Source: Porpolomopsis calyptriformis
Lineage: Eukaryota; Basidiomycota; Agaricomycetes; Agaricales; Hygrophoraceae
NCBI GenBank assembly: GCA_951640195.1
Contig: OX621176.1
Span: 1,359,105 to 1,423,104 of the forward strand
DNA length: 64,000 bases
Reading direction: 5' to 3'
How positions within the stretch are numbered: the stretch's first letter is position 1; the number at the start of each line of letters is the position of its first letter. Position numbers and translations under genes: made by a program. Positions 32,812 to 64,000 of this stretch are shown here, one piece after another. The notes beneath the pieces were generated by a model. It was not told the origin of the DNA. It ran no database searches and saw nothing but the letters and a program-made list of their open reading frames with translations.

Positions 32812-35800
32812 TTCACCAATGTCTGATTCTATACTCACCTCCAATTCCCAATCCTTGGTCATTCCAAAACTTCGAGATGATGGCTCCAACTGGGCAGATT
32901 ATGAGCCGAGGGCTATGCGAGCGATGGGCTCAAAAGGCCTCGTACCCCACTTGAATGGACGATCCAAACGGCTAGTGGATCTGGTCGAGCTTAATAGTGT
33001 CCCCCAGTACAATGGCAAAGATGCCACTGATGAACAAATCGAAACTAGAGAGAAGAAAATGCTTGACTTTGATAGCGCGAGTATCTTGCGCAACATCTAC
33101 TCCTCTCGACAGTCTCACCTCGTTTGTCACAAAAGATTATGAAGCTTACCACTGCCAAGGACATGTGGGATATGGTTAAAGCAGATGCGACCACGAAAAG
33201 TGTTCTTCACCAGGTCGATATGCTCAATGCGCTACAGAACATGAGATGCGCATCGTCTCCAGACCCGAAGATACATCTTGCCGAGCTGAAGGCTCATCTG
33301 GCTAAGATGACAGAGCGGGTGGAGTATTTTAGGGTGACTAGCTCACCTGTTTCCGACCCGATGCAGGTCAATATAATGATTGCGTCGATGCTGGAGGTTT
33401 ACCGTGCCACTGTGCAGACGGTCGAAACCACCATGAAGGTTACTGGAAAGTCTATCCAGCCTGATGACCTAGCGTCAATTTTCATCCAGGAAGCGGAACA
33501 CCGCTTGATTGCCAGTGGGCAAGAAAGGGCTGCTGAGGCGGCGATGTTTGCCTCGCAAGGTTCCCGAGGATCTGGATCGAAACGCACAGAAAAGAAGTCC
33601 GCAACAACTAAAACTTGCTATAACTGCCAAAAGGTCGGTCACCTGAAGGCAACGTGTTATGCCCCAGGAGGCGGCATGGAGGGGCAAGGTCCCCATCAAC
33701 TGAAGGCGAAAAAGAAACTTGAGGCGGCTAATGTAGCGAAAGTATCAGAAAACGATGACTTGTTCGCATTCACATGCACCTCGGACTTTAAAGCCATCGT
33801 ATCTAACCTCAGGTTGGATGGATTGGGTCGCGATACGATCCTCGATAGTGGCGTCAGTCGTCACTTTTGCCCAGATAGGGCAAGGTTTGAAAACTACGTA
33901 CCGATTGACCGCAAAATCAAAACTGCCGATGGAAGGACGTTTAAGGCAATCGGAACTGGAGACGTAAGGATTGAGCTACCTAACGGCAGTTCATCATCGT
34001 CAGTGATGTTGAAGGACTGTGTGTACGCACCAGATTTAGCCTTCACACTTGTTTCTGTCAGCCGACTACCTCAAGCTGCCAAGTCTGTGGTCTTCGGAAA
34101 AGACCACGCAATTGTTACTCACCCTCGTGGACATGTGATAGCGAAGATCCCACGATTCCAAGGGTTATATAGGATTACACCCAGAACTGAAACCCGGTGT
34201 GATCATGTGAATGCCGTGACTACCAAGATGACGCTGATGGAGGCCCACCGGAAGTTGGGCCATATTGCTGTGTCGACAGTAAAGCGTATGGTATCGAACG
34301 GAATGATATTGGGTATCGAGATTGACCCATTGTCCAAGGAAGAATTTTGTGAGCCATGCGTAAAGGCAAAGGCGGCACGAAAACCATTTCCAAAAGAGTC
34401 ACTTACCTGAGCAACACAATATGGTGAACGAGTCCATTGGGATCTCTGGGGACCTGCTTCGACATCTAGCCTAGGTGGGAAGCACTATGCTGCCTTCCGA
34501 AAAGATGACTACTCCCGTGAGACACAAGTCTACTTCCTCACAAAGAAAAGTGAAACTCTCAATGCCTACAAGAAGGACGAGGCAGCCATTAATACTCAAC
34601 AGAATGGTGCCCGGATCAAATACCTCCGGTGTGATCGAGGGGGAGAATTCCTGAGTAATGACTTCGATCACCACCTCACTACGAAAGGGACAAAACGTGA
34701 ACTTACTGTCCATGACTCTCCTCAACAGGATGGAGTCTCTGAACGTGGTATGCGTACCCATGCTGAACACGCCCGTGCCCTCCTTTTTGCGTCGGGATTA
34801 CCGCAATCCCTTTGGGCCGAAGCTATGCACCACTGTGTGTGGCTAGAGAACCGGACTGAAACCCGAGCACTGAATGGAAAGACCCCATATGAGATGGTAC
34901 GTGACCGGAAACCATTTCTGGGTGGGATCCATGAGTTTGGAGCTGCCGCATATGTGAAAGACTTGCATGCTGGAAAGCTTGATGAACGTGCACGGAAAGC
35001 CCGCTTTGTCGGATACGATTCCGAGAGCAAAGGGTTCCGGATTTACTGGCCTGATAAGCGAACCATCAGTATCGAATGGGATGTTGTGTTCAACCCGGAA
35101 GACCTACATCTGCTTCAGGGTGAAGGTATTATCATCCCTGAAGATACCCTGGATGAAGGGGAGAAGAATAAAGTCATCCAGCACTATCCCGATGAACCTA
35201 GACACCTACCCCCCAATTCCGAAGTTGTCCCGGAAACTCCAAAAATTCCGGAAACCCGGAGACTTAACCCGGAAATCCCGGAAATCCCGGAATTGGCACC
35301 TACCTTTGGACACGGAATGCATACACGTTTACCCCCGGGATCTTACCAGGATATGACAAGGGGTGTTTATGAACCTGCTGCCCTAGCATATGCTGAGGCA
35401 TTCATCTGTGATCTCGGTCTGGAGAGTGGTGATGAACCAGGGGGAGTAATCCCGCTCAACTTCAATTCCGATGATGAAACCCTTGACCTGCTTTATGCGA
35501 TAGCGGGATCCATGGGCTCGGAACCATGCTCAATGACTGAAGCACTTGAGGGGCCACATGGAAAGGCATGGGATGCTGCTCTGAAATATGAGATAGGTCA
35601 ACTCCAGAAACTCCGGACTTGGGAGATTGTCGACCTACCCCCCGGAAAACCCGTAATCCCATGTTCCGAAGTATTGAAGGAGAAACGGAATGCGGATGAC
35701 GTTGTGGATACACGTCGGGTTCGCATAGTTGCTGGTGGACACCGCCAAATGTATGGTGTGAATTACACGGAAACGTTCTCGTCAGCTGCGAAGATGCCAT

Positions 35801-37080
35801 CTGTCCGAGTCATCCTCTCTTTAGCTGCTCAACTCGACTGGGAAATCCACCAGGTAGATATCAAGAGTGCTTACCTCAATGCCCCACTGAAGGAGGAGGT
35901 CTATATGTGGCCTCCGAAAGGAGTTCTGAAACCCGGAGAGGAAGGGAAGGTCTGTCATCTGCTGAAAGCGATGTATGGACTGAAACAGGCCGGGCACGAA
36001 TGGTATGAAACACTTTCTGCAGTGTTCTACAAGCTCGGATACCAACGATCAAGCGTGGACCACTCTGTATTCTTCAAACGCAATGCCCATGAATCTGTCA
36101 TTGTTGCTGTAGCCACAGATGACATGGCTATTGCCGGGTCATCTATTCGAGCTGTAAACGGATTCAAACGAGGACTTTGAACCCACTTCGAGATTGCAGA
36201 TATGGGAGATATCCACTGGTTCCTAGGATTCGAGATAAGAAGGGACAGAGCAACCAGGACCATCTCCATCAACCAACGAGCCTATATAGAGGCAATGGCA
36301 ACAAGGTTTGGACTATCAGATGCCAAACCCGTAAATCTCCCGGCTCTGCCTGGTCAGGTGCTATCTGGAGATCAATCACCTGTTACACCACATCAGATAA
36401 GTGAGATGCAGGATGTACCTTATGCCGAGGCTATAGGTCATGTTCTCTGGCCGGTTATGATATCCCGGCCGGATGCGATATTTCAAGTTGGGCAGCTTGC
36501 CCAATTCGTTAAAAACCCGGGAATGGCGCACTGGGAGGCCTTAAAACGCCTCATTATATACCTCAACTCAACGAAGGACCTATGGCTGGTCTTGGGTGGG
36601 GGTGAACGGTCAGACCCGGTGATATACACTGATGCCGACTGGGGATCCCAGTCGGATAGACACTCAATATCCGGATATGTGATGCGGATGGGAGAAGGGA
36701 CTGTCACATGGAGCTCGAAGAAGCAGCCTATCGTGGCCCTCTCAAGTACGGAATCTGAGTACATCGGGCAAACCCATGCCCTGAAGGAACTGTTATGGGT
36801 ACGACAATTTTTGGGAGAACTCACCTCAAAATTCACGAACCCGACTACCCTCTATTCGGATAACCAAGGCGCGATCGCCCTTGCGAAGAACAACAAGTTC
36901 CATGCTCGATCCAAGCACATCGACATCCGATATCATTTCATCAGGGAATCGGTAACAAACAAGGACGTCGAAATCATCTATGTCCCTACCTCCAAAAACA
37001 TCGCCGACATCTTCACGAAAGCCCTCCCAGCTCCAAAGTTTATGTACTTCCGCGACAAGCTAGGACTACGTTGTGATTGA
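32801..37080 (+). pseudogene. Copia gag-pol polyprotein, broken by one frameshift and two TGA stops
   Basis: Gag runs from MSPGSPMSDS; a 1-2 nt frameshift near 33073-33080 separates it from REYLAQHLLLSTVSPR and on. Zinc knuckle CYNCQKVGHLKATC; protease TILDSGVSRHFC (DSG motif); GAG-pre-integrase EAHRKLGHIA...FCEPCVKAK; integrase VHWDLWGP, YLRCDRGGEF and DGVSERG supply D, D and E; reverse transcriptase WDAALKYEIGQL, QVDIKSAYLNAPL, YGLKQAGHEWYE and VATDDMAIAG (the usual YVDD Tyr and Val replaced); RNase H YTDADWGSQ and ALSSTESEY. Stops at 34408 and 36178 fall inside otherwise continuous frames and both fit CGA to TGA. Probably not autonomous now. Confidence 0.92.
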
Positions 37081-60631: not shown

Positions 60632-62340
60632 CATCAAAGTGGGATATGAGGGTGGGTATGTGTACCAAATTTGAAATCAATCTGATAAGTACAAGCTAAG
60701 ATATAGTATATGTTGAGTGCTGAATAGTCTTTTCAGTATTCAACTAAGTAATAGGAACAGACTTTGGATAATCAGTATGAAATAAAATAGTTGAAAAAAT
60801 TGACTTGCTTCATATTGAGTATACTTTGCAACCCATGCTTGATAGATTAGACCTTCTTTAGTGGGTGGTCATTTACTTATCATAGACTGCATCATGCAAG
60901 TTAAGTGATATGAGACAGACAGGTTAGCTATGGAGAAAGATTTTTCAGTGCTATGTCACATGTCACATATCACATGATCAATAACATGACTGTAGTATAG
61001 TATACAGCTTGAACCTTGACCCTAGTCTACACATGAACTATGGAAGTAATTTTTGCTAAAAGAGAGCATAAAATCAATAGCTAATTGGCATAATGTCCTA
61101 GTAAGTTACTAGAATGTCCTAACACAATTCCAAACTGAATACAACCTCTGCCTCTTCTGGTAATCATAGACAGTGAACTAGAATTCAAGATCTCCAAAAT
61201 CCTAGACTTAAAGATTGATATAGATATGCACATATCAGGTTTTAGTAATGAGAGCTATAAACATAAAAGAGATTTGTACAGTATATGACTTAGAGTAGCA
61301 AAAAGAGGTTAGTGTAGCAAATATAGAATATATACAAGACAATATACCTAGCAGATAGTGTGTATGATATATAGACTATATAATAAAATATATGCATAGT
61401 ATACAAGATATGTAGTATACACAATATATATAGAATAGATAGACACAGTATATAGGATATTGTCAGAGATATATTTTTTCTTTTTCCTTTGCTCGTCTAT
61501 TCCCATTTACATCAGACAGTTTACACTAATAGCCGCTTAGCCACCCAAGCTCCGCTTAGTAATACAAGGTGACCAAGCCATATCTATATTTAGTCAACCA
61601 TCACTCTCCTTATCTACATGACTCATCCATAGTCATTACGACTCACACGTAGTCAATATGACTCATACTTAGCTAGTATATAAAGCTAGCAGTAGATAGA
61701 CTTAGGATAAGTCTGTTTCTTTTGTTAACACCCCAATCAGTAGTCTTCCAACCCTTTGAAACCCTACACCCAGAGCCTGAAGTAAAACCTTGCGATCAAC
61801 CCTAGACTGCCGTCTAACAAGAAACAGACTTCCTTCTTGCTCACTCCACGCTATACAACCCCTACTCTGTCTAGCTAGTGCTGAAGGTCTTCACCCACGA
61901 GATCAATTTCACCACCCAGACATTAACATCGATTAGGCTTGCTCTCTCCCCTTGTATTCCCATCAAGCCCCCCAATATCCAACTGCCACCGTTCCACCAA
62001 TGGTTTTGACTCGTTCATCATCCACTATCCCTCACCCTGCTATCCCTCTCTCCCAGGAAGGCTCTCTCCCTCCTGCCCCAGCTCCCATCCCCGACGAGAT
62101 GGTTGACCCTGCCCAAGAAGAAGAAGAACAAGAACAAGAAGAACAAGCAGGTCCCTCTCACTCAAAAGGGAAAGGTCGAGCTGAGGACAATGATGAGGAT
62201 GAAGAAGAAGATCCACGCGTAGCCTTCGAGATCATGAAGCAGGATTATCAACAATTGCTGCAGGTCCAACAAGACCAAGCGCAAGCTAGTCATAGAATCG
62301 AACAACAACTCCAAGTATTGATGGCCAACCTCATAGGCCC

Positions 62341-62485
62341 CCAACCTGTCCCTGCCCCTCTTGGGCTATTCCCACAACCTCTCCAAGCACCCCCAGTATT
62401 CCCCCAACCTGTCCCTGCCCCTCTTGGGCTATTCCCACAACCTCTCCAAGCACCCCCAGTATTCCCCCAACCTGTCCCTGCCCCT
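62341..62485 (+). repeat. 63-bp minisatellite inside gag
   Basis: Two full 63-bp units at 62341 and 62404 and the start of a third at 62467. Each encodes a 21-residue Pro-rich unit beginning PQPVPAPLGLF. The third decays into PAPAPVPAPAPA. The unit length keeps the frame. Confidence 0.88.
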
Positions 62486-63474
62486 GCCCCTGTCCCTGCC
62501 CCTGCCCCTGCCCCCGCCAAGATCAAAATGAACCCTCCTGACGAATTCTCTGGTGATCCCACCAAGCTTCGCAATTTCCTGCGTCAAGTGAAGCTGAACC
62601 ATTTGGGACGACCAGGAATCTCAGAGGCTGACAAGATTATCTATGCCTTGTCGTTTATGATCGGAGGAAATGCAGAACCATGGGCTGAGTGTCAAGTAGA
62701 CGCTTACACAATGTTGAACTAGGTTGGTGCCGATTGGGCTGTCTTTGAACAAGCCCTTACCCGAGACTTTGGAGACTTGGACCCCAAGTCAACTGCTCAA
62801 CTGAAGATCAAGGACGTCAAGCAGTTCAACAAGAGTGCAGAGGAGTATAACATTAATTTCAATCGATGGGCCCATGATACTGGATACGGACAAGAAGCTT
62901 CGACAACTTTATATAAAGACGGACTCAACCCCTCCCTTTTGCGACAGATCTACCTTTCAGATCGTCAACCCACCACCCTCTTTGAATGGCAGTCTCATGC
63001 TGCTGAACTTGATAGACGACATCGAGAATTTCTGGCTAGAACATCTTCTAAGCCCCAGACTCGCAACACTCGCATCACCAACACCCCCTACCGACAAGGA
63101 CCACCTGCTGGTCCCTCCACCTATTCCAACCCTGCTGCCCCCAGAATCAAACAAGAAGAAAAGCCTGCTTCACTAGGAGGAATTCCCAAAGGAGCATGTT
63201 TCAACTGTGGATGATTTGGCCACTTTGCCAGTTCTTGTCCCAATGCTCCTAGGACGAGTACTTCTGGTTCTGGAAGCCGCCCCTTCACCCCAGCAGCTAG
63301 AGGTCATGGAGGAAAGAAACCCAGTCGAGGAAGAAATGTTCGAGTTCTGGAGACCTCAGCCTCGATTGAGGAGGTCAACTCCAATGAAGATTCTCATCAA
63401 GACTTCAAGAAGTGTGGTATCGTCAACTGGGAGCCTAAGAGGAAAGAAGAGCTGAAGAGAGCTTTGGAGAAACA

Positions 63475-63481
63475 GGGTTTT
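63475..63481 (+). promoter_or_regulatory. -1 ribosomal frameshift heptamer GGGTTTT
   Basis: In the gag frame the codons are CAG GGT TTT TGA, so G-GGT-TTT is a canonical X-XXY-YYZ slippery site next to the gag stop. Shifting -1 continues as FLNSPDNSSCVADSF into the protease frame. A downstream pseudoknot was not analysed. Confidence 0.72.
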
Positions 63482-63850
63482 TGAACAGTCCAGACAATAG
63501 CTCGTGCGTTGCGGACTCCTTTTCTATGTGTACCACTACCCCTATGCAATCTATTTCCCAAATTCTTGGTGCACTTGATTCAAGCGAAGAAGCTTTAACC
63601 ATACCCCTTTGGTTGGAAACCACAGACACTGGTAGACGAATTGCCGCCAGTGCATTGATAGACTCTGGCACCTCTGGATGCTTTATAAACTGGAATTTCG
63701 TGCAGGAGCGCGATATCCCTTTTTATTGATTGGAAGGACCAATCCCCGTGCGGAACGCAGATGGGACAGACAACCGAGGAGGTCCCATCGAATATACTGT
63801 AGACCTGTGGATGGAGACACCAGATTTTCCTAGGGAACGAACCCATTTGG
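63481..63850 (+). pseudogene. Ty3-like aspartic protease fragment, cut by telomere
   Basis: In the -1 frame relative to gag. It shows the retropepsin motif SALIDSGTSGCFINWNFV. TGA at 63727 (DIPFY*LEGPIPVRNADGT) fits CGA to TGA. The frame continues to FPRERTHLEG and runs into telomere repeats. Confidence 0.8.
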
Positions 63851-63854
63851 AAGG

Positions 63855-64000
63855 TTAGGTTAGGTTAGGGTTAGGTTAGGTTAGGGTTAGGTTAGGTTAG
63901 GGTTAGGTTAGGGTTAGGTTAGGTTAGGGTTAGGTTAGGGTTAGGTTAGGGTTAGGTTAGGGTTAGGTTAGGTTAGGGTTAGGTTAGGGTTAGGTTAGGG
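63855..64000 (+). repeat. Telomere array of mixed TTAGG and TTAGGG units
   Basis: 146 bp parse exactly into 27 units: 16 TTAGG and 11 TTAGGG. Two TTAGGG units are never adjacent and TTAGG occurs once or twice between them, so blocks are 11 bp (TTAGGTTAGGG) or 16 bp (TTAGGTTAGGTTAGGG). The G-rich strand points to the window end, as at a right chromosome terminus. Confidence 0.93.

Follow-up and report, generated by a model that had tools for sequence, protein, structure and literature searches.

The repeats that close this stretch of DNA mix two units, TTAGG and TTAGGG (coded below as 5 and 6), and the question they raise is whether the order of the two units carries information about the enzyme that made them. 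The window, i.e., the whole stretch of 64,000 nucleotides that was analyzed, is the 3' end of contig C14 in a genome of 33.5 Mb and 17 contigs. At its end, from 63854 to 64000 on the forward strand, lies a telomeric repeat array (by sequence, unit parse, shuffle test, and junction comparison), with the G-rich strand running outward to the contig end. These last 147 bp consist of one added G and 27 units, 16 TTAGG and 11 TTAGGG, which from 63855 read 556556556565565656565565656. The original prediction had placed here, from 63855 to the last base, blocks of 16, 16, 16, 11, 16, 11, 11, 11, 16, 11, and 11 bp, and the unit parse reproduces both position and order exactly. It had also claimed that TTAGGG never occurs back to back; this holds in the window, where none of the 10 steps out of a 6 leads to another 6, but not genome-wide, where 2 of 39 do. 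In 20,000 shuffles of the window units, 4.05 pairs of successive TTAGGG (66) were expected versus 0 seen (P = 0.0010). The end of the window is a natural chromosome end, made by telomerase.

Both ends of all 17 contigs were examined (n = 34, two of them not nuclear, as C17 reads as mitochondrial), and six carry telomeric arrays: the 3' ends of C1, C6, C7, C14, and C16 and the 5' end of C12. The TTAGG(G) strand points outward at all six. The arrays, of 128 to 146 bp, comprise 153 units, 110 TTAGG and 43 TTAGGG, and within them the unit parse met no other G number, unit type, or substitution; three close with one or two extra bases (T, TT, and TA), of which the TA, at C6, is off pattern. Ends of plain TTAGGG, named beforehand as evidence against a mixed telomere, were met at none of the six, and with so many TTAGG units the arrays lie outside the class built of TTAGGG units only. 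The mixture of units recurs at every array, with a grammar that is weaker outside the window. Intervals between successive 6s (n = 37) held no TTAGG in 2 cases, one in 14, two in 12, and three in 5, with one interval each of 4, 5, 7, and 14; the array of C7 opens with 16 TTAGG, and the run of 14 is found at C16. The last complete unit is TTAGGG at four of the six ends (binomial P 0.056), which hints weakly that GGG is often where synthesis ends.

The order of units is not random. Pooled over the six ends, TTAGGG was followed by TTAGG 37 times and by TTAGGG twice (39 steps; one 66 pair in C1 and one in C6), and TTAGG was followed by TTAGGG in 40 of 108 steps. Shuffling the units within each end gave an expectation of 11.5 such pairs versus the 2 seen, and two or fewer arose in 0 of 20,000 shuffles. 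The deficit is strongest in the window end, yet it is present without it: in the other five ends, pooled, 66 occurs in 2 of 29 steps versus 7.4 expected (P = 0.0047, 237 of 50,000 shuffles). Single ends are not significant (shuffle P of 0.10 for C12, 0.22 for C6, 0.59 for C7, 0.38 for C16, and 0.27 for C1). The C12 array, in the opposite orientation, is also built of TTAGG and TTAGGG, with 66 in none of the six steps out of a 6. The avoidance of two TTAGGG units running is a strong bias, not an absolute rule. A Markov model of order 1 had the lowest BIC (156.1 versus 167.2 for order 0, 165.4 for order 2, and 173.5 for order 3; fitted on 135 positions after exclusion of the three opening units at each end) and was the best of orders 0 to 3 also in the four ends without long TTAGG tracts, a preference that separates these arrays from a randomly heterogeneous class in which each unit is independent of its neighbor. 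All these order statistics rest on the assembly sequence, in which 6 of 34 ends carry a telomere.

The best explanation of this order, and one that we consider probable, is a single telomerase RNA template that spans both units and is re-annealed in two registers. Such a template would be about 13 to 17 nt long and hold both unit types, with the growing 3' end re-annealing on it in either of two positions. An end with a fresh TTAGGG would find its best pairing in the register for TTAGG, and an end with TTAGG would pair about equally in both, leading to either unit. The outcome would be a telomere stepped in TTAGG, with TTAGGG optional and almost never repeated. More tentative, at slightly less than an even chance in our judgment, is the fuller reading that a single telomerase senses the unit just made and that a two-unit template with competing registers turns this into a one-step Markov chain with one nearly forbidden pair. 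A memory of one unit is most simply explained if the template exceeds a single repeat: since each unit depends on the previous one, the template would have to reach back to the third G of that previous unit and thus be longer than one repeat.

We ranked the registers of nine template words found in the genome, taken as example templates, by counted base pairs rather than energies or kinetics. Two of them (16 nt and 15 nt, both containing TTAGGGTTAGG) fit the observed order: after a 6 they strongly favor a 5, and after a 5 the two registers are almost level. With AGGTTAGGGTTAGGTT, an end in TTAGGG would form 11 bp for a following 5 versus 4 bp for a 6, and an end in TTAGG 5 bp for a 6 versus 4 bp for a 5; with GGGTTAGGGTTAGGT, the counts are 9 bp for 5 versus 4 bp for 6 after TTAGGG and 3 versus 3 after TTAGG. 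Three other words favor 5 after either unit, more so after TTAGGG. The 17-nt word of C2 and the 13-nt words of C12 and C3 do not fit, and the 14-nt word at C3:2402396 produces no 6. The idea that an internal GGG in the template would abolish memory proved wrong for templates of about 15 nt. A vertebrate-type 11-nt template takes the identical register after 5 and after 6 and therefore gives no memory.

Two telomerase RNAs, or one RNA with a second, TTAGG-only mode, could instead alternate, the long TTAGG tracts of C7 and C16 coming from the second; we regard this as rather unlikely. The runs of 16 and 14 TTAGG are indeed outliers (about 4e-5 and 1.5e-4 per run under the first-order model) and count against the two-register template as well, passages of PMC8211666 speak of telomerase RNA paralogues that differ in template, and the genome holds two diverged copies of a locus with a 13-nt template-like word (C1:3178329 and C3:2512382). 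These copies, however, share one word, and both were rejected as telomerase RNA, lacking a P6.1-like hairpin and an Rfam telomerase match. About as unlikely is a template of one repeat at which random stuttering, or a random stop before the last G, produces the two units, with the order an accident. Heterogeneous yeast telomeres are known, with stalling, stuttering, and misincorporation among the causes named in the same source (PMC8211666, in part), and for Cryptococcus and Kwoniella passages of PMC11185503 give a motif with a variable number of C, TAAC(4,5); against this, the deficit of 66 pairs rejects independence of neighbors with the window or without it. A strict 11-nt dimer, (TTAGGTTAGGG)n, with slippage that adds one TTAGG was the mechanism originally put forward, and the window alone fits it, having blocks of 11 and 16 bp only. 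At other ends there are runs of 3, 4, 5, 7, 14, and 16 TTAGG, as well as the two 66 pairs, and the first 5 after a 6 leads to a 6 in just 14 of 35 pooled cases. A fixed 11-nt step to which no more than one TTAGG is added does not accommodate runs of 3 to 16 TTAGG, and TTAGG runs ranging from 0 to 16 set these arrays apart from the Bombus type with its one fixed repeat. The strict dimer is contradicted as a fixed rule, and as an explanation it is very unlikely; it remains the commonest product (14 of the 37 intervals). Least probable of all is an error of base calling or consensus in runs of G, for which one may cite the assembly as the sole data type and the final TA of C6, since random G loss gives another order whether it starts from TTAGGG (mean of 11.6 66 pairs, 99% of simulated runs 3 to 23, versus 2) or from strict TTAGGTTAGGG (no even-length TTAGG runs versus 14 seen), and the six arrays are free of other units and substitutions, C12 in opposite orientation included. 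In this respect the original statement that the order is not random error stands, being borne out at several ends.

The preferred two-register template calls for a telomerase RNA gene, and the search for one with a matching template gave no convincing locus: template-like words do exist away from telomeres, and the loci that were read are without telomerase RNA features. The word search covered CCCTAACCTAA, TAACCTAACCC, and CCTAACCCTAA as a whole and part of the other permutations of the 11-mer plus one base (100 of 181 places). CCCTAACCTAA occurs at 44 places, 40 telomeric and 4 not; TAACCTAACCC at 45, of which 10 are not telomeric (all 10 read); and CCTAACCCTAA at 66, with 27 not telomeric (10 of them read) and one place in common with the TAACCTAACCC set. 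The Rfam telomerase families gave no match in the loci tested, nor did the vertebrate telomerase family genome-wide at E up to 10, a weak search, its controls having yielded sub-threshold matches in 5 of the 14 genomes, all five of them prokaryotes. A P6.1-like 13-mer, one mismatch allowed, was present at 36 places versus 28 for its control and, judged by eye, at none within about 7 kb of the listed template words.

Alignment of the C1 and C3 loci over 1,462 columns gives 93% identity, and the template word lies 3' of a gene. This 1.46-kb duplication comprises the gene and its 3' region; the gene, which has homologues throughout the Agaricomycetes, is broken in C1. The homologue matches carry PF28377, and the Pfam scan of the gene itself gave a sub-threshold BNIP2 match alone. 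As a template, its 13-nt word does not favor 5 after 6, and in the C3 copy the sole Sm-like match, AATTTG, is 832 bases downstream. The longest mixed word (17 nt, C2:1922440) is flanked by an ICE2 gene and a nucleoporin gene (Pfam), near the start of the latter as read, and is probably part of a promoter; a single P6.1-like hairpin is upstream of the word. The word at C12:1618956 is within what we read as an LTR-like stretch. At C13:1328509 (15 nt), the fold is no better than shuffles (z of -0.57 and -0.42) and there is no credible family match; this locus has a TATA-like box, a T-rich stretch, a NACHT-like gene nearby ("NACHT-like" being our own reading of the frames), and one P6.1-like hairpin far upstream. 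The word with the best register fit (16 nt, C13:517252) is found at the start of a NACHT-like gene, and a relative 7.5 kb away has a similar word with the same flank, which points to a promoter element. The two best-fitting words are probably not telomerase RNA genes, one being at the start of a NACHT-like gene and the other known from a context of 201 bases. For telomere-like words of 16 nt or more, about 0.5 would be expected at even base composition versus six loci among those read, some with shared flanks. Since such words exceed chance and several lie close to a gene start, the RNA gene cannot be located from word matches alone. By gene readings that are mostly our own, TTAGGGTTAGG-like words stand close to where NACHT-like and some other genes begin, as though serving as promoter boxes.

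The telomerase protein was found. A genome profile search gave a PF12009 match at C8:1304322-1304690, which marks a telomerase reverse transcriptase gene, and in our own spliced model of it Telomerase_RBD (E 2.3e-30) and the C-terminal extension TERT_C (E 1.1e-11) are above cut-off, with RVT_1 slightly below (27.0 bits; cut-off 29.6). Among its best 33 matches, the best named homologues are agaricomycete telomerases (36 to 45% identity). An Hsp70-family protein of the window likewise has its best named matches in Agaricomycetes (ca. 60% identity; 77% for a metagenome protein). By these sequence comparisons, the genome is that of an agaricomycete with a telomerase gene. A search for the POT1 family gave no match in the genome and none in control genomes either, and is uninformative about the matching changes in telomere-binding proteins that had originally been suggested.

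Next to the array of the window is a fragment of a Ty3-like retroelement (62401 to 63853, forward strand) that breaks off at 63853, where the telomere caps it, while other copies run on past this point. Positions 62401 to 63850 match 39 other places of the genome at 96 to 98% identity (40 of 190 candidates scored, window included). Both copies that were read cease to match at 63853, the point at which the telomere starts with GTTAGG. Pfam matches to Retrotrans_gag (62723 to 63211, E 2.1e-4, under the curated cut-off) and, weakly, to Ty3_capsid (61937 to 62719) were obtained. As the repeat match stops where the telomere starts, the chromosome broke inside the element and the break was capped by telomerase. 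Elsewhere in the window (33076 to 37080), open frames in our own reading resemble a Ty1/copia-type retroelement. The telomeres of C6 and C7 cap, at separate points, the same subtelomeric element, which is >99% identical in the fetched stretches compared and present also at C1 5', C3 5', C9 5', C9 3', C11 5', and C15 5'. This element (e.g., C15:1-10000) encodes a SIR2-family protein (Pfam E 5.4e-22), the frame of which is cut by the telomere at C7, as well as similar ORFs of 195 to 218 aa; a Pfam scan of one of these ORFs gave no match. Repeats are thus joined straight to non-telomeric broken ends at three of six arrays (the retroelement of C14 and the subtelomeric element of C6 and C7), and at least these three look like telomerase-like additions to broken ends.

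Among telomeres already described, the nearest parallel is the bumblebee. According to passages of PMC9841428, Bombus telomerase makes TTAGGTTGGGG, and cloned TRAP products contain an irregular concatenation of TTAGG and incomplete repeats, linked by the authors to alternative annealing; the 11-nt repeat likewise consists of two units, TTAGG and a G-richer one. Bombus differs in being an insect with a known telomerase RNA, a dominant 11-nt unit, and irregular TTAGG in test-tube products (same passages), whereas here variable TTAGG runs are found at chromosome ends. The 5-nt unit is shared with two mushroom-class fungi given as plain (TTAGG)n, Boletus edulis (in parts of PMC12134998) and Rhizoctonia (in parts of PMC7884421), the latter ambiguous because TTAGG is reported yet the methods section names TTAGGG. 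In the yeast Tetrapisispora, sub-repeats of the template are thought to permit two registers and two unit lengths (28 and 25 nt), but this is an ascomycete with long units, without TTAGG in the portion of PMC8211666 concerned. The tremellomycete motifs TTAGGGG and TAAC(4,5) also show a shifted G number in basidiomycetes, with no ordered alternation in the portions describing them. Most of 21 Basidiomycota had TTAGGG in an excerpt of PMC10100673, as have matsutake and Somion in the excerpts concerned. The same short tandem repeat of TTAGGTTAGGG (11 bp) occurs, in a non-telomeric setting, in three IMG/VR viral contigs whose flanks resemble one another. Ustilaginales have a known telomerase RNA, and one has been proposed for Malassezia (PMC10035886 and PMC12506658, in part), and that of Kwoniella is called unidentified in a passage of PMC11185503. 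In the open-access literature, which leaves most subscription journals outside, we recognized no report of an ordered TTAGG/TTAGGG telomere in a fungus among the matches listed, and a search of the same literature found no paper on telomerase RNA in Agaricomycetes. The telomerase RNA of U. maydis is reportedly derived from an mRNA.

Mixed telomeres are usually ascribed to stalling, stuttering, or misincorporation (passages of PMC8211666). A unit order with memory would document, in nature, the repositioning of the template by telomerase, and the telomere sequence alone would then report the choice of register in vivo. If so, the TTAGG telomeres reported for other mushrooms may conceal a like order, which tools that give one consensus repeat, TTAGG or TTAGGG, would mask. 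For the telomerase RNA of this lineage, the concrete prediction is a template of 13 to 17 nt that holds both units. What we describe is a true telomere in which each unit bears a memory of the one before; a template with two registers explains it best, and the order suggests that the enzyme picks each unit by the preceding one.
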